From: an uncultured Acholeplasmatales bacterium
GTDB lineage: Bacteria > Bacillota_I > Bacilli_A > Acholeplasmatales > Anaeroplasmataceae
Assembly: GCA_905236105.1 (NCBI GenBank)
Contig: CAJOOI010000018.1
Coordinates: forward strand, 1 to 42,439
DNA length: 42,439 bases
Direction of reading: 5' to 3'
Part shown: piece after piece, positions 28,597-41,384 of the stretch
How the letters are laid out: every line of letters begins with the position of its first letter
Position numbering within the stretch: the stretch's first letter is position 1
Program-made: the position numbers and the translations under genes
Notes under the pieces: model-generated
Told to the model about the DNA's origin: nothing
Database searches by the model: none
Seen by the model: the letters and a program-made list of their open reading frames with translations, nothing else

Positions 28597-31500
28597 TTAA
28601 ATTCTACCTATTAATTTTTGAATCCATTTTAATTGTCTCTTAAACCAAGGGACAAAATTTTTAAATATTTGCATTACAGGAATTGATAGTAAACATAACA
28701 TTAATAAGAAAATCTTATTTTGAATTGATAATTCTCTTACAATTCCTGTATTAGATGATGTAATACTATTTGAAGATATTTGATAATCTGTAACTATATT
28801 ACCTAATATCAAATAGTTATCAGCTGATTTTTGAGGATTTAAGATAGGATCTGTTGCTGTATATTTTGTATAATAACCATCAATAATATAATTTCCTTCA
28901 CCAGTTACTTCAATTGAAGGTGAATAATGAATATTATCAATTGTAGCGCCGTAACAACGGAATGTTTCATCACCAACTTTAAGTGAATAAGAAATATCTC
29001 CAGAATCTGCAGTAACTTCCATAAATGCATCACTTCTATAAATATCGATTGGCTTACCATTCTTATCTAAATATTTTAAGAAGCCTTCAATACTTACATT
29101 AGGGAATGTGAAATCTTGTTCTACATCATTTACGTAATATTTATCTTCAACTGGTTTATATTTAATTGATTGCGTACCATCTGCTGAAGTAATAGTATAG
29201 ATAGCATAATCTTCAACATTTTTAGTACCATAAATATAAAATATGTTTGTATCAGTAAAGACAGCATCTAAATATAATACATTTCTTCCAGCAGTTACAG
29301 ATGTAGTAAATTTAGGAATAGTTATTTCATATGGTTGAGGTCTTAATGTACCATCATTATTAGTTGCGTAAATTGGTTTTCCATTTACTAATAATAAATA
29401 TTTATCGCCTGATTTACCAATTGTATAAGTATTATTTGTTGATTCAACTTTATATTTATATTCATTAGATTGGAAACCATTTATGATTAATTCACCATTT
29501 TTTACAGTGATTGTAGGCATTACACAAGCTTGACGTATTGCCTCATCTGATTTATATGAACCATATTTAATATGATAATTATAATAATCATTACTACTTT
29601 CTAAAGTAATATTGATTGGATATTGTTTTACTGAGCCATCTTCATCAAGAATAGTATTACCATTTTCATCTGTTCTAGAGCACCATAAATAACCTTTTTC
29701 ATCAATAAATAATTGATCTTGTAAATCATCTGTATATTGAATATCATTTACTTGATAACCACCTAAATAAATATTTCCTTTTGAATCAAAGCTAATATCT
29801 GGAATTGTAACTTCAAAATATACTATAGATGAATTAGATATATAATATGGTTTAGAACCATTGATTGTATAATATAATTTAGTTGTAGAACCATCATCAT
29901 CAACATCAACTGAAAGAGTAGTTGTTGCTGAATTGTTGTCTAATCTAAGTTCGCTTACTTTATTATCTATTACATAATAATTGCTTTTTGATATTTGAAC
30001 ACTAGGATATGATGTTATTGTTTCTTCTGTAATTGAAGTAGAATGATATTCTGCAAATTTAAAGATTGGCCTAAATTCAAATAATTGAGGTAAAACCAAT
30101 ATAGCAAACAAGAATGCAGAATAGCAGCCTATACATAAGCCTTTACGCATTGCATTAAATGGCTTACATGCTCTAATTAATACTGTAAGACATGTATGTG
30201 TTGCTGCAATAACTATGACAGTAGTTAATGTAACACTATCTAAATATAAAACATCTTTTAGCGAGAATACAATAATAGATATCACTAAAATCGTGAGCGC
30301 CCCAGGCAGAGCCTCTCGAACAACATTATAAATGAATTTACCTTTAACTGGGTTGTTATTAGGTTCATTTATTAAGAATAATGATGGGATACCAATTGAT
30401 AATGTATCAATTAAGAATAATTGGTTAGTTGATATTGGATAAGTTCCCATAAATAAAGCTTGGATTGCTAAGAATAATGAGAAGATAGTCTTTGTTAAGA
30501 ATAATGAAGATACTTTAGTAATATTATTAATAACTCTTCTACCTTCTGATACAACACTAGGCATTGAATCAAAATTTGAGTCTAGTAAAACTAAGTGTGA
30601 ACAATTTCTTGCAGCATCAGAACCTGAAGCAACAGCAATTGAACAATCTGCTTCTCTTAAGGCAAGAATATCGTTAACACCATCACCAGTCATGGCAACA
30701 GTTTTACCTTCATTCTTAAGAGCACTGATTAATAATCTCTTTTGTGCAGGTGATACACGACCAAATACTGTATATTTAGATGCACATTTAATGATATCTG
30801 AATCTCCCATACCATCTAAAGAAATATATTTATCTGCATTATCAATACCAGCTCTTTGGCTTATTTTAGATACTGTAATAGGGTTATCACCAGAAATAAC
30901 TTTAACTTCTACACCAGAATCCTTGAAATATTTAATAGTATTTATAGCATCTGGTCTAATTGTATCTTCAATTAGAATCATTGATAATAATAAAGCTTCA
31001 TTAGATGGTAATTCACCACCTACTATGTCGCCTTCTCTATATGCTAAGCATAAAACTCTAAAGCCTAATTGGGCATATTTATTAATATCATTTTTATATT
31101 TATCAAATGTGCCTCTTAATACAAATTCAGGAGCACCTAAAATAAATGTACCAAATTTGTCAAATGTAACAGCTTGATATTTTCTTTGAGAAGAAAAAGG
31201 AATTGCAGCTGTGTGTCTAATTCTTTTACCTAAACCGAATTTTTCTTTTAATGCTGTACTCGTAAGGTTAGTATCCTCAAGTGCATTTAGCATTGCTGAT
31301 ACAATGTTTTTAGTAGCAAGACCATGAATTGTATTATAATCAATTACATTTTTTACAACCATTGAGCCATCTGTTATTGTACCTGTCTTATCAAGACAAA
31401 TACAATTAACTCTTGCAAGCATTTCAATACAATATAATTCTTGAACTAAGACATTTTTCTGAGCAAGTCTAATAACAGATAAGGTTAGTGCGATAGATGA

Positions 31501-32616
31501 AGTTAAGAATAAGCCTGAAGGAATCATACCTATCATTGCACCAGCAGTTTTCCTAATTGCTGTAGCATAATTTACATCTCTTGCCAAAAACATTATGATA
31601 AATAAGCTAACACCTAATACAATTACTGGTACAGACATTACCCATATAATCATATTTAATGAATGCAATAAATCTGATTTTGGTTTTTTGTAAAGTCTTG
31701 CTTGATCAGATAATCTTTCAATATAATTATCTTTACCAATTTTATCTACTTTAGCGCTACATTTGCCTGATATAACAAATGAACCACTATATAATAAATC
31801 ACCAGGTTTTTTAACTATTGCATCTGATTCACCTGTAAGAAGTGATTCATTTACTTCAACTGAACCTTCAACTACAATTGAATCTGCGCATATTTGTCTT
31901 CCTGCATCTAATAATACTAGATCATCAAGGACAATTTCATTGACTGCAACTTCATGATTTACACCATCACGTTTGACTATTGCAGTAGGTGAATTTAATA
32001 AAGAAAGGTTATCAATAATCTTTTTAGCCCTTATTTCTTGGATAATTCCTATTATTGTGTTTGCAACAACAATAACTAAGAAAGTTAAATCTAGGTAAGC
32101 ACCAACAGATATTAACATACCTGCAATAAAGAACATCAAAATATTAAAAAATGATAAGAAATTAGTAAAAACAATTTTCCATATTGGTCTACTTCTTGTA
32201 TTACTTGATTCATTTACAAGTCCATCAATCATTCTATCATTTACGATATCTGATGGAAGACCTAATTCTGGGTCTGTTTCATATCTAATCAATTTAGAAG
32301 TTTCATTTTGTAATGCTTTTCTTCTTTTTTTGATTTCATTTTTTCTTTCGCGTTCAAATAGCTCTTTTTGCTTCTTTTCTTCCTTAAGCTTTCTTTTTCT
32401 TTCTTTAGGTGGAAGCATTTCTATTTCAGCAGATACTTTGGTTTCATTGGCCACTTCAATTCTTTCTTCTTCATCACTATAAACTATGGCATCTGAATTG
32501 TCTATTTCTTCATCTTCATCAGTTTGATCAGCTTGAAGCTCTTCATCTTCAGTATTATTTAAATACTCAGCCAATTCTTCTTCTGATAGTTCATCGATGT
32601 TTGGATATTTTGCCAT
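28597..32616 (-). CDS. P-type cation-transporting ATPase (CtpE/Ca2+-type-like) with charged N-terminal tail and large C-terminal extracytoplasmic insert
   Basis: ICLDKTGTITDG phosphorylation site, LLTGESDAIVKKPG actuator loop, VKVISGDNPITVSKI, AMTGDGVNDILALREADCSIAVASGSDAAR hinge. Confidence 0.93.
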   Translation of the reverse strand: MAKYPNIDELSEEELAEYLNNTEDEELQADQTDEDEEIDNSDAIVYSDEEERIEVANETKVSAEIEMLPPKERKRKLKEEKKQKELFERERKNEIKKRRKALQNETSKLIRYETDPELGLPSDIVNDRMIDGLVNESSNTRSRPIWKIVFTNFLSFFNILMFFIAGMLISVGAYLDLTFLVIVVANTIIGIIQEIRAKKIIDNLSLLNSPTAIVKRDGVNHEVAVNEIVLDDLVLLDAGRQICADSIVVEGSVEVNESLLTGESDAIVKKPGDLLYSGSFVISGKCSAKVDKIGKDNYIERLSDQARLYKKPKSDLLHSLNMIIWVMSVPVIVLGVSLFIIMFLARDVNYATAIRKTAGAMIGMIPSGLFLTSSIALTLSVIRLAQKNVLVQELYCIEMLARVNCICLDKTGTITDGSMVVKNVIDYNTIHGLATKNIVSAMLNALEDTNLTSTALKEKFGLGKRIRHTAAIPFSSQRKYQAVTFDKFGTFILGAPEFVLRGTFDKYKNDINKYAQLGFRVLCLAYREGDIVGGELPSNEALLLSMILIEDTIRPDAINTIKYFKDSGVEVKVISGDNPITVSKISQRAGIDNADKYISLDGMGDSDIIKCASKYTVFGRVSPAQKRLLISALKNEGKTVAMTGDGVNDILALREADCSIAVASGSDAARNCSHLVLLDSNFDSMPSVVSEGRRVINNITKVSSLFLTKTIFSLFLAIQALFMGTYPISTNQLFLIDTLSIGIPSLFLINEPNNNPVKGKFIYNVVREALPGALTILVISIIVFSLKDVLYLDSVTLTTVIVIAATHTCLTVLIRACKPFNAMRKGLCIGCYSAFLFAILVLPQLFEFRPIFKFAEYHSTSITEETITSYPSVQISKSNYYVIDNKVSELRLDNNSATTTLSVDVDDDGSTTKLYYTINGSKPYYISNSSIVYFEVTIPDISFDSKGNIYLGGYQVNDIQYTDDLQDQLFIDEKGYLWCSRTDENGNTILDEDGSVKQYPINITLESSNDYYNYHIKYGSYKSDEAIRQACVMPTITVKNGELIINGFQSNEYKYKVESTNNTYTIGKSGDKYLLLVNGKPIYATNNDGTLRPQPYEITIPKFTTSVTAGRNVLYLDAVFTDTNIFYIYGTKNVEDYAIYTITSADGTQSIKYKPVEDKYYVNDVEQDFTFPNVSIEGFLKYLDKNGKPIDIYRSDAFMEVTADSGDISYSLKVGDETFRCYGATIDNIHYSPSIEVTGEGNYIIDGYYTKYTATDPILNPQKSADNYLILGNIVTDYQISSNSITSSNTGIVRELSIQNKIFLLMLCLLSIPVMQIFKNFVPWFKRQLKWIQKLIGRI

Positions 32617-33011
32617 TATAACCCTCCTCCTGTAATCATATTTATTATTTCTTCAACACGATTTAGCTTACCATCTAGATATAAACCACCTATCAGTGCT
32701 TCAAAGCCTGTGGCAGTTAAATAATCTTTTAATTCAACATTATGCCTTGTTGTAGATGGATGCGTGTTTCTCCCTTTTTTAAAAAGGCTTAATTCGTATT
32801 CGTCTAATAAATTTTTCTCTAATATTTTTTCCATATAAGCTTTTTGAGCTTTAGCACTTGTATAATTAGTAGAAACAATATTGTGAATATTATTCATTTT
32901 TCCACCTTTTGTTGTCAAAATGAATTCACGAATATATTTTTCATATACTGCATCACCTAAATATGCTAATGCTAGTCCATTATAATCATTACTTTTTAAA
33001 TGATTTTCCAT
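32616..33011 (-). CDS. mrnC: Mini-ribonuclease III
   Basis: LALAYLGDAVYEKYIREFILTTKG...STTRHNVELKDYLTATGFEALIGGLYLDGKLNRVEEII; adjacent to cysS. Confidence 0.93.
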   Translation of the reverse strand: MENHLKSNDYNGLALAYLGDAVYEKYIREFILTTKGGKMNNIHNIVSTNYTSAKAQKAYMEKILEKNLLDEYELSLFKKGRNTHPSTTRHNVELKDYLTATGFEALIGGLYLDGKLNRVEEIINMITGGGL

Positions 33012-34327
33012 TCAACAAGTTTTCTCCTATATTCATCAGCAAGTTCGAAATTTTTATTTAATCGTGCATCTTGCCATAATTTATAAGTATTTAATTCTTC
33101 ATCATTCATTTTTTTAACGAATAAATTAATACCTAATACGCTAAAAATAGTTTCGATTGTTTTTAATTTGATTGCTAAATCTTTATAGTTTTTGTTTCTT
33201 AATAAGGTATTAATATCTTTAAAAATGTTATTTATTAGCATTAATACATTTTGAACGTTAAAATCATCATCCATATATGATTTAAATGATGTGATATCAT
33301 CTTCATTAAATTCGTTAGATAATAAATCTAATGATTGTAGCTCATATAAAGCCATCTTATATGCTCTTTGCCATTTTAAATATTCATTTTTATATTGGTT
33401 AAATATTGAGCCATCTTTATCATATGAAATGATATTTCTGTATGGAGTAAATAATATTAATGTTCTTAAAATCATTCCTTCAAATGAATCAAAATCTTTA
33501 ACATAAATTACATTACCTAAAGATTTACTCATTTTTTCTTTACCTAAATCAAGTCGTGCTACATGCATCCAATATTTAGCTAGTGGAGCATTGTATAGTG
33601 CTTTAAATTGGGATAATTCATTTTCATGATGAGGGAATTTTAAATCCATTCCACCACCATGAATATCTAAATTAGTTCCAAACAATTTGTAATTCATTAC
33701 AACACATTCAGTGTGCCAGCCTGGTCTACCTTCTCCAAAAGGTGATTGCCATTTAATACCAGTTTCTGTTTTTTTCCATAAAGCAAAATCAAATGGATTT
33801 TCTTTTGCTTCATCAACATCTATTCTAGCGCCACTTTCTAAATCTTCAATACGTTGACCTGAAAGCTCACCATAATTTTTAACTTTACTTACTCTAAAAA
33901 ATACATCTCCATCTTTTTCATAAGCGTAGCCTTCTTTTATTAGTGAATTGATAAAATCAATCATTTCGTTGATGTAGTCAGTTGCATGAGGAATAAAATC
34001 TGGTTTTTTTGAGCCAACTAAATTTACTGCTTTAAAATAAGCATTTTCATAAAAAGAAGCAACTTCTTTTTCTGTTTTTTCTTCTGATAAAGCTTTGTTA
34101 ATTATTTTATCATCAACATCAGTTATGTTTGATGCATAATTAACTTTATAACCTAAGAATTCTAAATAATTTTTGACCATATCATAAAAGATAACTGGTC
34201 TTGCATTGCCGATATGAATGTAATTATAAACTGTAGGACCACATACATACATATTGACAACATTTCTTTGACTAGGTATAAATTCTTCTATTTTTCCGCT
34301 TAAAGAATTATATATTTTTAAAGACAT
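32996..34327 (-). CDS. cysS: Cysteinyl-tRNA synthetase
   Basis: VYNYIHIGNARPVIFYD (HIGH), GWHTECVVMNYKLFGTNLDIHGGGMDLKFPHHENELSQ, KEKMSKSLGN (KMSKS). Confidence 0.98.
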   Translation of the reverse strand: MSLKIYNSLSGKIEEFIPSQRNVVNMYVCGPTVYNYIHIGNARPVIFYDMVKNYLEFLGYKVNYASNITDVDDKIINKALSEEKTEKEVASFYENAYFKAVNLVGSKKPDFIPHATDYINEMIDFINSLIKEGYAYEKDGDVFFRVSKVKNYGELSGQRIEDLESGARIDVDEAKENPFDFALWKKTETGIKWQSPFGEGRPGWHTECVVMNYKLFGTNLDIHGGGMDLKFPHHENELSQFKALYNAPLAKYWMHVARLDLGKEKMSKSLGNVIYVKDFDSFEGMILRTLILFTPYRNIISYDKDGSIFNQYKNEYLKWQRAYKMALYELQSLDLLSNEFNEDDITSFKSYMDDDFNVQNVLMLINNIFKDINTLLRNKNYKDLAIKLKTIETIFSVLGINLFVKKMNDEELNTYKLWQDARLNKNFELADEYRRKLVEWKII

Positions 34328-34340
34328 AAAATACCTCTTT

Positions 34341-36305
34341 TTAAGCAGCTAAATCAACATATTTTTCAATTAATGCTTTAAATAGATTGTATAATTCTTC
34401 TGATAAGCCACCTTCAATTGAAGATGAAGTATTTGTTACTTTAGCTTCAACATCACCAAAAGAACCTGCAACATCTCCTACATAAAAATAGCTTTCTATA
34501 TTTTCATCAGGCATATATAATCTTACAATTGTATTTGCATCAAGAGTAAAATCACATTCTTCAGTTGATAATGCTTCAATTTCATAAGTTTCATTTGTGC
34601 TATTTTCTTTTATTATATCAAGCATTAAAGTTTTTTCAGAATTATTAACTACACGTGTCTTTAATTCTTTTGAAGGATCAAAAGTTGCACCACTTGCAAC
34701 ATTTACTTCTTGTTCATCTTCTAGATAATATGCTTTGAAAGTTACTTGTTGTAATATTTCTGCATCAGTAATCTTGTTTTCAAGTTTAACAGAATATTTA
34801 CCTTCTTCTGTATTTGCAAATTCATCTGTATAAACAGTCGTACTATCTAATTTAGCATTGATGTAGAAAGGTAAGTCAGCTTTAAATATTGCATAGCAAT
34901 TATCTATTTTGTCAATTTGACCTTGGATTTTTCCAATGAAGCCACCTAAATATGAGAAGAAATGTCTAGTTTTGCTAGAAGTTGTTGTTGTACCTTTTGT
35001 CATTTTAACATTTTGATAATCTACTTCTGGTTCAGTTCCATCTTCATTAAGTTTATATTCGCCTGCATAAATCTTGATTTCTGATGCTGCAACACATTTA
35101 GTTATATTGCTACCATTTGATATGTTGTTTGTACCAATAAAGCCACCAACATATAAGTCAAATTCATCTGTTGCTGATGAATTTTTATATTTAGAAACAA
35201 TAATATTTGCATCTGCATATGATTCTGTTACTAAACCACGAGCATTACAGTTGCCAATAAAGCCACCAATTGCAAGCCATCCAACTTGAGCATAGTTTGT
35301 TGCAGCCTCAATTGAACCTTCAGCACCACAATTTTTAACAGAGATTCCATCTTTTAATGCATTATCTTTTAAGCAACCTGCAAATAGGCCGATTGATAAT
35401 TTTAATCTAGCTTGTGTAGATGTTATTTTGGCATTTGTTACTTTTGTATTTTCGATTGTATCATTTACACCTAAGCCGATTACACCACCAAAATAGCTTT
35501 CAGCTGATGATAATGCGCTATATTTGAAATCTATGTTATCAACTGTACAATCTGTTATTAAAGTTCTTTCAGCATAACCAACAATGGCACCACATTTTGT
35601 ATTTCCTTTGCTAGATGAAGAAAAATTAGCGGTAACATCACTTACATTTAAATTTTTGATAGTTGCAGATAAAGCATATTCAAATAAACCTGTATATTCT
35701 GAGTTAGGTACTGCATAGTTTTTAATTGTATGTCCTTTACCATCAAATGTACCACTGAATTTAGTTGTTGCATTGAATCTTGTAGATAAAGTTTCACCAG
35801 CAAAATCTAAGTCGTTATCTAAAACATAATAGCTTGTTGGGTCATTAACCATTTTTTCAAAATCATCAACAGTTGTGATATGTATAGCATTATCTTCAGT
35901 TTGACTATTTGAATTTGTTGTTACATCATGATGTGTGATTTCTGTATCATTTCCATTGAATGTAACAAATAATTTGAAACGATATTTTGTAGAAGCTGTA
36001 AGTCCACTAAATGTTTTAGTTGCTGAATAAGTTGATGTATCAACATCTAATTTTTCCATTAGCTTATAAGTTTCATTCCCATCTTCAACTTCGTATTGTT
36101 TAAAGTATGTTGATGCTGCACCAGTTGTTAGGTTATCATTTTTGTCAAATCTAACAGAAAGTGTTACAGTTTTACTTGTTACACTTGAAGTTGTTATTTG
36201 GACATTGCTTTCAGTAATACCGCTTTGGTTAGAATTACATGAAACAAAAGTAAACACTCCTATAAATGCTAGCGCAACAAGTGCGATTATTTTTTTAAAT
36301 TTCAT
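34341..36305 (-). CDS. Surface lipoprotein with FN3-like N-terminus and GLUG-type beta-helix repeats
   Basis: Signal peptide with lipobox (FTFVSCNS); GTFDGKGHTIKNYAVPNSEYTGLFEYALSATIKNLNV, GAIVGYAERTLITDCTV, GGVIGLGVNDTIENTKV. Confidence 0.75.
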   Translation of the reverse strand: MKFKKIIALVALAFIGVFTFVSCNSNQSGITESNVQITTSSVTSKTVTLSVRFDKNDNLTTGAASTYFKQYEVEDGNETYKLMEKLDVDTSTYSATKTFSGLTASTKYRFKLFVTFNGNDTEITHHDVTTNSNSQTEDNAIHITTVDDFEKMVNDPTSYYVLDNDLDFAGETLSTRFNATTKFSGTFDGKGHTIKNYAVPNSEYTGLFEYALSATIKNLNVSDVTANFSSSSKGNTKCGAIVGYAERTLITDCTVDNIDFKYSALSSAESYFGGVIGLGVNDTIENTKVTNAKITSTQARLKLSIGLFAGCLKDNALKDGISVKNCGAEGSIEAATNYAQVGWLAIGGFIGNCNARGLVTESYADANIIVSKYKNSSATDEFDLYVGGFIGTNNISNGSNITKCVAASEIKIYAGEYKLNEDGTEPEVDYQNVKMTKGTTTTSSKTRHFFSYLGGFIGKIQGQIDKIDNCYAIFKADLPFYINAKLDSTTVYTDEFANTEEGKYSVKLENKITDAEILQQVTFKAYYLEDEQEVNVASGATFDPSKELKTRVVNNSEKTLMLDIIKENSTNETYEIEALSTEECDFTLDANTIVRLYMPDENIESYFYVGDVAGSFGDVEAKVTNTSSSIEGGLSEELYNLFKALIEKYVDLAA

Positions 36306-36544: not shown

Positions 36545-39460
36545 ATGCTTAGAGTAGGTTTAGATATTGGTTCAACAACAATAAAATGTGTTGTCATAGA
36601 TGATAAAAATAATATACTTTTTAGTGATTATCGTAGACACTATTCTCACATTAAAGACAATATAATCAAGACTTTAACTGAGATAAAAGAAAAGAAAATA
36701 ATAACTGATAAAATAATGCTAAGTATGTCTGGTTCAGCAGGAATGGGTCTTGCTGATGGATGTCATATTCCATTTGTGCAAGAAGTTTATGCAACACGTA
36801 TTGCTGCAAATATTTTAATACCTGGAACTGACTGCATTATTGAACTTGGTGGAGAAGATGCTAAAATTCTATTTTTAACAGATGGAATGGAAGTTAGAAT
36901 GAATGGTACTTGTGCTGGTGGTACAGGTGCATTTATTGATCAAATGGCAACATTACTTAATGTTGATATTACAGAAATTAATGGTCTTGCAAGAGAACAC
37001 CAAAAATTATATTCTATCGCTTCACGATGCGGTGTTTTTGCTAAGAGTGATATACAGCCTTTACTTAATCAGGGTGCATCAAAATCTGATATAGCTGCTT
37101 CAATATTTTATGCTGTAGTTAATCAGACAATTGGTGGACTTGCACAAGGTAGAGAAATAACTGGGAAAGTTGCATATTTAGGTGGGCCATTAACATTTTT
37201 ATCTGAATTAAAAAAAGCATTTGATAAAGTGTTAAATACTGAGGGACTTTGTCCAGATAATTCACTATATTTTGTTGCCTTAGGTGCAGCATTTGCTTCA
37301 AAAGAAGAATTAAGTGTTGATGAAATAATCAAAAATCTTAATGAATTTTCCAATAAATCTACTTATGCATTTAATAACCCTTTATTTAAAGATGAAAACG
37401 AATTAAAAGAATTTGATTTAAGACATAAAAAAGATACAGTTGAAACATTACCTCTAGAAGGATATGAAGGAAATTTATATTTGGGTATAGATAGTGGTTC
37501 TACTACTTTAAAATTTGTTTTAATTGATGAAGATTTAAATATAAGATTTCAAAGTTATAATCCGAATAAAGGAAATCCAGTTTCAGTTATAAAATCTATT
37601 TTTACTGATATTTATGAAAAATATCCAAATATCAGAATTAAGGCTTCTGCTTCTACTGGCTACGGTGAAGAATTAGTAAAAAATGGTTTTAAGCTTGATG
37701 GTGGTATTGTTGAGACTATGGCGCATTATATGGCTGCCCAACATTTTAAACCAGATGTTGATTTTATAATCGATATTGGTGGTCAAGATATTAAATGCTT
37801 TAAAATAGAAAATAATGCAATATCAAATATTTTCTTAAATGAAGCTTGTTCTTCTGGTTGTGGTTCTTTTTTACAAACATTTGCAAACGCACTTGGCTAT
37901 GACATAAAAGATTTTGCTAATTTAGGTTTGATGGCAAAAAAACCAGTAGATTTAGGCTCTAGATGCACTGTATTTATGAATTCGAGTGTTAAACAAGCTC
38001 AAAAAGATGGTGCTACTATTGATAATATTTCTGCAGGTTTATCTATATCTGTAGTTAAAAATGCATTATATAAAGTTATTAGATGTACATCAAAAGATCA
38101 ACTTGGAAAACATATTGTAGTTCAAGGTGGTACTTTCTTAAATAAAGCTGTATTGAGAGCTTTTGAAAGAGAGCTTGGAATTGATGTTGTTTGTCCTAAT
38201 ATAGCAGGATTGATGGGAGCATATGGTGCAGCTTTATATGCAAAAAGCTTAAATATAGAAAAAACAAATACATTAACAAAAGAAGAAATATTAAATTTTG
38301 AACATATTGTTAAAAATATAGAATGTCAGGGCTGTAATAACCATTGCTTATTAAATATAAATACTTTTAAGAATAATCCTAATAAATTTATAAGTGGTAA
38401 CAAATGTGAAAAACCATTAGGTATTAAAGCAACTAAAAAAGGTGAGAATTTATATGAATTCACAAGAAAATTACTTACAAGTTATAAATCAACTGGAGGT
38501 AAGCGTGGAAGAATAGCTATACCTTTAGTGCTAAATATATATGAATTACTTCCATTTTGGACAACGTTCTTTTCTTCATTAGGCTTCGAAGTTGTAAATA
38601 GTGGCTTTTCAAGTGATAAAATATATTCACAAGGACAAAATACAATTCCATCTGATACTGCATGTTATCCAGCAAAGCTTGTTCATGGACACATAGCTAA
38701 GCTTATTGATGAAGGTGAAAAAATCATATTTTATCCATGTATGAGCTATAATATTGATGAAAATATGGGTGATAATCATTACAATTGTCCAATTGTTGCA
38801 TATTATCCTGAAAATATATTAAATAATGTTGGTAAAATAAAAGATGTGACTTTCATTTCTGACTTTTTGGCAATTGATGATAAAAAGATGTTTAATATAA
38901 AAATTAAAGCTATCTTAGATAAATATTTTAAAGATAAAAAAATAAAAGCTAAAGAAATAGAAAATGCATCAAGACTTGCTTTTGAGGCATATGATGATTA
39001 TTTAAGTCAAATAAGGAATAAAGGCTTAGAATATATTGAAAATGCTAGAAAAGAAAAAAGACAAATTATTGTTCTTGCAGGTCGTCCATATCATCAAGAC
39101 CCACAAATTAATCATGGTATTGATAAATTAATTTGTGATATGGGAGCTACAGTAGTTACTGAAGAATCTATTTCACATCTTAATGAAAAATTCCCTGTTA
39201 AAGTATTAAATCAATGGACTTATCATTCAAGATTATATTCTGCTGCAAAATATTGTACACATGAAGATGATATGAATTTAGTTCAATTAGTATCATTTGG
39301 TTGTGGACTTGATGCAGTAACAACAGATGAATGTAAACTTATATTAGAATCAAAAGGAAAAATATATACGCAAATTAAGATAGATGAAATTACAAATTTA
39401 GGCGCAGTTAAAATTAGACTTAGAAGTTTATTTGCTGCATTGGAGCGAGGTAAAAAATAA
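36545..39460 (+). CDS. 2-hydroxyacyl-CoA dehydratase activase-type protein with two BadF/HgdC-like ASKHA domains plus DUF2229-like region
   Basis: LDIGSTTIKCVVID...GGEDAKI...NGTCAGGTGAFIDQM...SRCGVFAKSD, then a second copy LGIDSGSTTLKFVLID...IGGQDIKCF...NEACSSGCGSFLQTFA...SRCTVFMNSS; C-terminal DTACYPAKLVHGH. Confidence 0.88.
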   Translation: MLRVGLDIGSTTIKCVVIDDKNNILFSDYRRHYSHIKDNIIKTLTEIKEKKIITDKIMLSMSGSAGMGLADGCHIPFVQEVYATRIAANILIPGTDCIIELGGEDAKILFLTDGMEVRMNGTCAGGTGAFIDQMATLLNVDITEINGLAREHQKLYSIASRCGVFAKSDIQPLLNQGASKSDIAASIFYAVVNQTIGGLAQGREITGKVAYLGGPLTFLSELKKAFDKVLNTEGLCPDNSLYFVALGAAFASKEELSVDEIIKNLNEFSNKSTYAFNNPLFKDENELKEFDLRHKKDTVETLPLEGYEGNLYLGIDSGSTTLKFVLIDEDLNIRFQSYNPNKGNPVSVIKSIFTDIYEKYPNIRIKASASTGYGEELVKNGFKLDGGIVETMAHYMAAQHFKPDVDFIIDIGGQDIKCFKIENNAISNIFLNEACSSGCGSFLQTFANALGYDIKDFANLGLMAKKPVDLGSRCTVFMNSSVKQAQKDGATIDNISAGLSISVVKNALYKVIRCTSKDQLGKHIVVQGGTFLNKAVLRAFERELGIDVVCPNIAGLMGAYGAALYAKSLNIEKTNTLTKEEILNFEHIVKNIECQGCNNHCLLNINTFKNNPNKFISGNKCEKPLGIKATKKGENLYEFTRKLLTSYKSTGGKRGRIAIPLVLNIYELLPFWTTFFSSLGFEVVNSGFSSDKIYSQGQNTIPSDTACYPAKLVHGHIAKLIDEGEKIIFYPCMSYNIDENMGDNHYNCPIVAYYPENILNNVGKIKDVTFISDFLAIDDKKMFNIKIKAILDKYFKDKKIKAKEIENASRLAFEAYDDYLSQIRNKGLEYIENARKEKRQIIVLAGRPYHQDPQINHGIDKLICDMGATVVTEESISHLNEKFPVKVLNQWTYHSRLYSAAKYCTHEDDMNLVQLVSFGCGLDAVTTDECKLILESKGKIYTQIKIDEITNLGAVKIRLRSLFAALERGKK

Positions 39461-40740
39461 TGGATCAATTAACAGAAGATTACCAATACCCTAAATTTAA
39501 TAAATCAATGATAAAAACTCACACTATTTTGATACCTTCAATGCTTGATATTCATATGGCATTATTTGAAAGTGTATTAACACAATGTGGCTATAAAGTT
39601 GAAGTAATGCAAAACCAAGGTCATGAAGTTGTTGAAGAAGGTTTAAAATATGTTCATAATGATACATGCTATCCTGCATTATTAGTTATTGGACAATTTA
39701 TTGACAATTTAAATCACAGAAATGATTTAGATAGAGTTGTACTTTTAATAACTCAAACAGGTGGAGGTTGTCGTGCATCAAATTATATCCATCTTCTTAG
39801 AAAAGCACTTGTAAAGGCTGGATATGGTTATATTCCAGTTGTATCTTTAAATGCTAATAGATTAGAAAAAGATAGTGGGTTTGAATTCAGCTTTAAAACA
39901 ATAAAAAAAGTAGTATCTGCAGTAACATATGGAGATACTTTAATGTATTTATATAATAAGACACGCTCTTATGTAAAAGTGCCTGGTGAAGCCAAAAAAT
40001 TAGTTGATGACTGGGTTAAAAAAATAAGTGATCAATTTGATTCTGGCAAAGGTACAAGCTATAAAGACATGAGAAAAAATATAAATCAAATTGCCCAAGA
40101 TTTTGATAATTTAGATTTGGATTTATCTCATGCAAAACCTAAAGTTGGTATTGTTGGCGAAATATATATTAAGTATGCTTCTTTAGGAAATAATCACTTA
40201 GAAGATTTTTTAGTAAGTCAAGGGGCTGAAGTAATGGTTCCTGGACTTTATGGATTTGCTTTATATTCGATTTATAATGGTATATATGATTATGAAATAT
40301 ATGGAAGAGGTAAATTAAAAGCATTCCTTTCTAAACTTCTTTTGAAATATTTAAAAAGAAGAGAAAAATTAATGATTAATGGTATTTCTAAAACAAAAAT
40401 AACACCAATGAAATATTTTAGTCATACAAAAGATTTATCTGAAGGTGTTTTAGACCATGGAACAAAGATGGGTGAAGGTTGGCTATTAACTGCTGAAATG
40501 ATGGAACTTGTAGAAATAGGGTACAGTAATATCGTTTGTGCACAACCTTTTGGTTGTCTTCCTAATCATATTTGTGGCAAGGGCGTAATGAAGAAAATAA
40601 AAATGCTACATCCAAGTGCTAATATAGTAGCAATTGATTATGACCCAAGTGCAACTAAAGTAAATCAAGATAATAGAATAAAATTGATGCTTTCAATTGC
40701 AAGAGAGTCCATTAAGGACGATGAGGAGGCGACTCTTTAA
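39460..40740 (+). CDS. 2-hydroxyacyl-CoA dehydratase-like (HgdB/HgdC-associated) protein
   Basis: HNDTCYPALLVIGQFID, LITQTGGGCRASNYIHLLRKAL, AQPFGCLPNHICGKGV; TAATG overlap with the upstream gene. Confidence 0.82.
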   Translation: MDQLTEDYQYPKFNKSMIKTHTILIPSMLDIHMALFESVLTQCGYKVEVMQNQGHEVVEEGLKYVHNDTCYPALLVIGQFIDNLNHRNDLDRVVLLITQTGGGCRASNYIHLLRKALVKAGYGYIPVVSLNANRLEKDSGFEFSFKTIKKVVSAVTYGDTLMYLYNKTRSYVKVPGEAKKLVDDWVKKISDQFDSGKGTSYKDMRKNINQIAQDFDNLDLDLSHAKPKVGIVGEIYIKYASLGNNHLEDFLVSQGAEVMVPGLYGFALYSIYNGIYDYEIYGRGKLKAFLSKLLLKYLKRREKLMINGISKTKITPMKYFSHTKDLSEGVLDHGTKMGEGWLLTAEMMELVEIGYSNIVCAQPFGCLPNHICGKGVMKKIKMLHPSANIVAIDYDPSATKVNQDNRIKLMLSIARESIKDDEEATL

Positions 40741-41384
40741 TGACCATTTTTGATGATCTTAATAAGGAAAAATTAGCTGAGGTTTTTGCACATATAAGAC
40801 TAAGACAACGTACAATGTTATCTGATAGTATACTTGTAAGACAAAATGATTCTTGTGAAAAAATTTTTTATGTAATAAATGGGACAATTGAGGCTTATAA
40901 AAAAATAGGCGATAAAGAAATTTTTGTTAAAGGAATTACTACTGGTGAATACATTGGTATTAATTTGATTTTTTCATCAAATCCGCTTTATAGAGCCACA
41001 TTTAAAGCAAAAGATAAAGTAAGTGTTGAAGAAATTAACAAAGAAGATTTAATAAAAGTTTTACAATATGATGAGCGAATCTTAAAAAAATTTTTAAACA
41101 TATTAACTGACTTAGCAATTGAACAAAACGACTCAATGAAAATTAAAACAATGAAAACAATTAGAACAAAATTGTGCTATTTCTTATATGAAGAATATAA
41201 AAAAAATAATTCATTAGAATTTGAACTCAATTATTCAAAAACTGATTTGGCTCGTTTATTAAATGTTGAAAGACCATCTGTCGGGTATGAAATAAAAAAA
41301 CTTGTTGATGATAAAATAATTGAAAATAAAAATAAGCATTATAAAATAATTTCATTAACTGACTTAATGAACAATTTAAAATAA
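40740..41384 (+). CDS. Crp/Fnr-family transcriptional regulator
   Basis: N-terminal cNMP-binding-like fold (IFYVINGTIEAYKKIGDKEIFVKGITTGEYIG) and C-terminal wHTH (YSKTDLARLLNVERPSVGYEIKKLVDDKII). Confidence 0.87.
   Translation: MTIFDDLNKEKLAEVFAHIRLRQRTMLSDSILVRQNDSCEKIFYVINGTIEAYKKIGDKEIFVKGITTGEYIGINLIFSSNPLYRATFKAKDKVSVEEINKEDLIKVLQYDERILKKFLNILTDLAIEQNDSMKIKTMKTIRTKLCYFLYEEYKKNNSLEFELNYSKTDLARLLNVERPSVGYEIKKLVDDKIIENKNKHYKIISLTDLMNNLK

Follow-up and report, generated by a model that had tools for sequence, protein, structure and literature searches.

P6 ATPases, represented by CtpE of the mycobacteria (family 23), have been reported from Firmicutes and Tenericutes (PMC5615198, PMC10654040). 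They carry the motif PEGL in TM4 and an Ile in TM6 where Ca2+ efflux pumps have an Asp, and the direction of their transport is an open question (PMC10654040). For CtpE, Ca2+ uptake was described (PMC5615198).

Large extracytoplasmic domains near TM7-TM10 of P-type pumps are known from the Na,K-ATPase beta subunit, Cdc50 and neuroplastin/PMCA (PMC6127144, PMC10654040). PMCA depends for its activity on neuroplastin, which touches both TM10 and the linker between TM8 and TM9; in Na,K- and H,K-ATPase, the contacts of the beta subunits are with TM7 and TM10 (PMC6127144). All of these are separate polypeptides with other folds, whereas pump and domain form one chain, a single ORF, in the case described here.

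The ATPase and its relation to P6 pumps

The window is a stretch of 42,439 nucleotides from an uncultured Acholeplasmatales bacterium of the family Anaeroplasmataceae. It encodes a P-type ATPase of 1339 aa (Table 1), whose ORF, length and coordinates had been given correctly in a sequence-only reading of the same DNA. The catalytic motifs LTGES, DKTGT, LGAPE and TGDGVND are all intact, and the features of the P-type ATPase superfamily (TGES, DKTGT, GDGxND, E1-E2 and HAD domains) are present. The charged N-terminal extension of 145 residues measures 44–176 aa among the relatives. The C-terminal tail (residues 1315–1339) contains six K/R and no D/E.

Table 1. Features of the ATPase locus (positions in the window; all on the minus strand).
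Feature	Positions	Strand	Evidence or remark
P-type ATPase ORF with insert, 1339 aa	28597..32616	-	Pfam E1-E2_ATPase 4e-39, Hydrolase 3e-22, TIGR01494
Charged N-terminal cytoplasmic extension, residues 1-145	32182..32616	-	length varies among relatives
ATPase core TM1-TM9, residues 146-848	30073..32181	-	identity 65-76% across the family
TM4 motif P-S-G-L (PEGL in P6 ATPases)	31510..31521	-	
TM9, about residues 826-846	30079..30141	-	hydropathy; helix in full-length model
Beta-repeat insert, probably extracytoplasmic, residues 853-1296, ~445 aa	28729..30060	-	location by standard topology
Repeat R1, residues 868-935	29812..30015	-	outscores shuffled controls against R6 and R3
Repeat R2, residues 936-1030	29527..29811	-	sequence weak, strand pattern shared
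Repeat R3, residues 1031-1097	29326..29526	-	profile comparison and single-unit HMM
Proposed repeat R4, residues 1098-1168	29113..29325	-	sequence weak, strand pattern similar
Proposed repeat R5, residues 1169-1229	28930..29112	-	unsupported
Repeat R6, residues 1230-1293	28738..28929	-	most conserved (YIIDGYYTxY...YLxLGxxxTDY)
TM10, residues 1300-1318, then basic cytoplasmic tail	28663..28719	-	hydropathy
Upstream Mini-ribonuclease III-like gene (mrnC), overlaps ATPase start	32616..33011	-	PF00636 5.7e-19
cysS, same operon-like array	32996..34327	-	TIGR00435 2.5e-133, above cut-off
GLUG-motif lipoprotein (predicted), same array	34341..36305	-	neighbour conserved order-wide

Like P6 ATPases, the protein has a P-type core, 10 predicted TM helices and an Ile in TM6. 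This residue (I741, in SIGIP) falls at the position of the Ca2+-site Asp in a manual alignment with the TM6 motif of SERCA and with the relatives. TM4 reads PSGL in the window and in nearly all examined members of the order, and PEGL in the relatives from Monoglobus, Tsukamurella and Pseudonocardia. The actinobacterial PEGL relatives align over the core at 36–37%. The pump further differs from P6 ATPases in its TM9-TM10 loop of ~445 aa; the CtpE of M. smegmatis comprises 791 aa.

Since the TM6 Ile is that of P6 ATPases but TM4 carries PSGL instead of PEGL, the pump is referred to as P6-like. Judged from its sequence, it appears to be related to the P6/CtpE ATPases and resembles them more than the canonical P2-type pumps of the earlier comparison; the Ca2+ uptake of CtpE should not be assumed for it. 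A second P-type ATPase of the genome (G000:C89, L055; about 890 aa) has a core 39% identical to that of the pump, likewise PSGL in TM4, and a TM9-TM10 loop of about 28–51 aa by alignment.

Location, fold and repeat units of the insert

Hydrophobic segments at residues 827–845 (TM9) and 1300–1318 (TM10) flank the insert, which confirms its placement between TM9-like and TM10-like segments, and the insert itself contains no TM-like stretch (maximum 19-residue Kyte-Doolittle value of 0.87). As the TM9-TM10 loop of the standard 10-TM topology, it is probably located outside the cell, as had been proposed. Family precedent, hydropathy, charge and the kinship of its hairpin unit with repeats of secreted surface proteins (see below) all point in this direction. 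The positive residues of the ATPase sit on the cytoplasmic side, and the inserts were found to be acidic in every orthologue examined, with a net charge of −13 to −42.

Acidic inserts would also suit an ectodomain that senses or captures ions and feeds or gates the pump; of this, ion sensing had been suggested in the sequence-only reading. However, the conserved columns of the insert hold mostly G, P, Y, N and T (the invariant ones mostly G, P, Y and T), the conserved acidic positions are few and scattered, and no ion-binding match for the insert was obtained in Pfam or PDB. Ion sensing is thus considered very unlikely. The other half of that functional claim, a surface-binding or subunit-like role, agrees with the kinship of the hairpins to secreted surface-protein repeats and was retained.

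The AlphaFold model of the insert, based on 18 sequences, is all-beta (pLDDT 84.8, pTM 0.80) with 47% strand and 4% helix. A model of 1200 residues of the pump, of lower confidence (pLDDT 71.5), still places helices before and after the beta region and matches solved P-type ATPases. In other families of the order the TM9-TM10 loop measures 6–23 aa, depending on species and alignment. The description of the insert as beta-rich and unusual for the pump holds.

The sequence-only reading had asked whether the insert belongs to an already annotated family; its sequence gave no significant match in Pfam, NCBIfam or PDB. A Foldseek search of the model against PDB was counted as no match: its hits were largely β-propellers and OspA-like sheets, with a best E-value of 0.005 and no TM-score above 0.16. 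A viral structure library likewise yielded no match. The repeat profile matched rotavirus VP4 in PDB (best E-value 0.0009) over 16–28 residues only, which was deemed chance. No description of such a pump insert was found in the open-access literature searched, and literature searches that covered the walls of Anaeroplasma and the ectodomains of P-type ATPases gave no relevant paper.

Six degenerate repeats had been proposed for the insert. These units (R1–R6) were compared profile against profile, with 60 column-shuffled profiles as controls. The probabilities were 96.6% for R1-R6, 80.6% for R1-R3 and 73.2% for R3-R6, values reached by none of the 60 controls. The pairs R2-R4 (29%), R2-R3 and R2-R6 (about 8% each) and R3-R4 (2%) scored low, yet above the controls, and for R5 no profile match exceeded its shuffled controls. 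Single-unit HMMs of R1, R3 and R6 matched elsewhere in real inserts, but hit shuffled inserts only very rarely.

In the AlphaFold model, R1, R2, R3 and R6 share an opening Pro followed by strand, turn, strand, turn and strand; R4 is similar and R5 is different. Three of the six units thus appear well supported by sequence and five by predicted secondary structure. R1, R3 and R6 can be retained as repeats, R2 and R4 remain weak, and R5 lacks support. The common unit is a beta-hairpin of the form P-x-I-x-I...G-x-[YW]-x-I-[ND]-G-x-x-T; across 39 inserts its motif was counted 203 times, compared to a mean of 27 (maximum 44) after shuffling.

A profile of the unit (55 positions) matched not only the pump but also a surface protein encoded in the same genome (C79, L166), with an E-value of 0.0036, a kinship that is statistically modest per unit. 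This protein has an N-terminal TM segment and List_Bact_rpt domains; three canonical hairpin units and GLUG-like repeats were also noted in it (G000:C79). Surface proteins of other members of the class, which have lipobox-like N-termini, were matched with E-values between 6e-5 and 9e-4. Weak matches to a RecF-like protein (L167) and a methyltransferase (L174), which are not surface proteins, were judged to be chance.

In the surface proteins the unit reads P-x-I-x-I-x-x-x-G-x-W-x-I-[ND]-G-x-x-T-x-x-K-A and adjoins List_Bact_rpt, collagen-like and DUF4988 (PF16378) regions, which have the hairpin P-x-I-x-I..G-x-[YW]-x-I-[ND]-G-x-x-T in common with the insert. Compared to DUF4988, the unit of the window insert is degenerate, based on tyrosine instead of tryptophan, and situated in a pump loop; neither this insert nor its relatives gave any match to DUF4988. 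Because the canonical units were gathered with a profile derived from the inserts, their comparison with the inserts is not independent.

Distribution and history of the insert

Orthologues of the ATPase core were found throughout the order. Among 160 genomes of the order, the whole-insert profile gave matches in 48, every one of them from the family of the window, and samples of the class and phylum gave nothing outside the family except one weak match (G357, E-value 0.0085) to an unrelated surface protein. Every full-length orthologue in six genera of Anaeroplasmataceae carries the insert between intact TM9 and TM10, with a length of 420–514 aa in the genus of the window (g1), about 380–400 aa in g15, 317–359 aa in g13 and about 300 aa in g12, g14 and g16. 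Cases that are truncated or missing correspond to contig ends or incomplete genomes (e.g., G015, G020 and G136). The seventh genus (g17) lacks the insert and has 19 aa in this loop.

In a tree of the core only, the insert-bearing Anaeroplasmataceae form a single group (support 98/99) with g17 outside, and one gain within the family followed by growth is the simplest history. Across the family, the insert is 29–46% identical compared to 65–76% for the core, and its structural residues stay conserved, which fits an exposed module.

A screen for orthologues by open-frame length revealed four pumps from f19, a further family of the class (G320, G391, G350 and G262; L202–L205). They are orthologous to the window pump with a core ~50% identical, and bear an insert in the same TM9-TM10 loop with the same hairpin unit. 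Their inserts differ in being shorter (~270 aa) and in being built, in each protein, from six canonical W-type units; they score 28.8 bits against DUF4988, below its cut-off of 30. In the other two f19 members examined the loop has 6–11 aa. The tree requires separate gains in Anaeroplasmataceae and f19, with a single gain in 0% of the bootstrap trees.

The whole-insert profile of Anaeroplasmataceae fails to find the f19 inserts. An HMM built from the f19 ATPase inserts only, on the other hand, detected 19 of the 39 Anaeroplasmataceae inserts at iE<0.01 and gave no match to shuffled inserts. This is the strongest evidence that the inserts of both families are built from one kind of unit.

These data also bear on a near-neutral or selfish expansion, in which a surface repeat entered the loop a single time, was tolerated because the loop is exposed, and expanded by duplication of units. 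The increase in length along the tree, from about 300 aa (g12, g14, g16) to 420–514 aa (g1), and the rapid divergence of the insert are as expected for such a process. It is nevertheless quite unlikely, as the open frame is retained in every full-length orthologue of the six genera, the structural motifs are conserved, and the independent second recruitment in f19 argues against a meaningless accident. That a similar domain was separately built into the same loop indicates that the fusion is probably useful.

The order lipoprotein-cysS-mrnC-ATPase is kept in the family and throughout the order, with or without the insert. It is thus older than the insert, which rules out that the GLUG lipoprotein was acquired together with it as a partner, and no partner gene co-occurring with the insert was found. 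Several families have an additional gene between the GLUG lipoprotein and cysS. Beside the array (36545–41384) the window encodes a divergent CoA-dehydratase activase, a DUF2229 protein and a Crp-like regulator; across the family, the activase and the DUF2229 protein are conserved as neighbours.

A PF00905 transpeptidase was not detected in the genome of the window (94% complete), as would be expected if the insert compensated for a lost cell wall. The presence of the insert does not track peptidoglycan transpeptidases, however: inserts of similar size occur together with them (g12, g15 and some g1) and where none were found (g13 and g16), and g17 has transpeptidases without an insert. Wall loss as a driver is contradicted by this distribution and is extremely improbable. 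Within one genus PF00905 is patchy (present in G006, G014, G016 and G021, undetected in the genome of the window, G018, G007 and G013), which suggests several wall losses or incomplete bins.

Possible role of the insert

We propose that the TM9-TM10 loop was enlarged, most simply once in Anaeroplasmataceae, by an array of β-hairpins of a type that secreted surface proteins also contain. The array would most likely form a folded accessory module held by both ends on the outer side of the membrane. Instead of providing an ion-binding site, it would make contacts with proteins or surfaces and in this way position, stabilize or tether the pump or bind a component of the envelope or medium, while the pump core presumably works as in the insert-free orthologues. 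The anatomy and evolution of the insert are very probably as proposed; an accessory or surface-contact role is plausible but still tentative. For the explanation as a whole, a single-chain P6-like pump with an extracytoplasmic accessory or surface-contact module in cis, we see about equal reason for belief and doubt.

Modelled on the separate subunits of Na,K-ATPase, P4 ATPases and PMCA, the insert could instead be a beta subunit in cis. It would then lie against the outer side of the pump close to TM7-TM10, and the pump would rely on it for folding or stability and have its turnover adjusted by it. The direct anchoring at TM9 and TM10, the recurrent gain in the same loop and the TM7/TM10 contacts of neuroplastin and of the Na,K- and H,K-ATPase beta subunits (PMC6127144) speak for such a subunit. 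The pump does not generally need the insert, however, as g17 and close orthologues in the order lack it, and the variable length (~300 to 514 aa) and fast divergence also make this rather unlikely.

Most of the large extracytoplasmic domains described for P-type pumps are subunits of their own, whereas here the domain is part of the pump's own chain. In a broader and fairly unlikely reading, a P6-like pump fused a surface-repeat ectodomain at least twice, resulting in a single-chain pump equipped with a β-subunit or receptor that would couple envelope or extracellular contacts to cation transport. The orthologues with and without the domain, together with the second independent case, offer a natural comparison for what an outside domain adds to a pump, and the insert-bearing pumps bear on the P6 group and the direction of its transport (PMC10654040).
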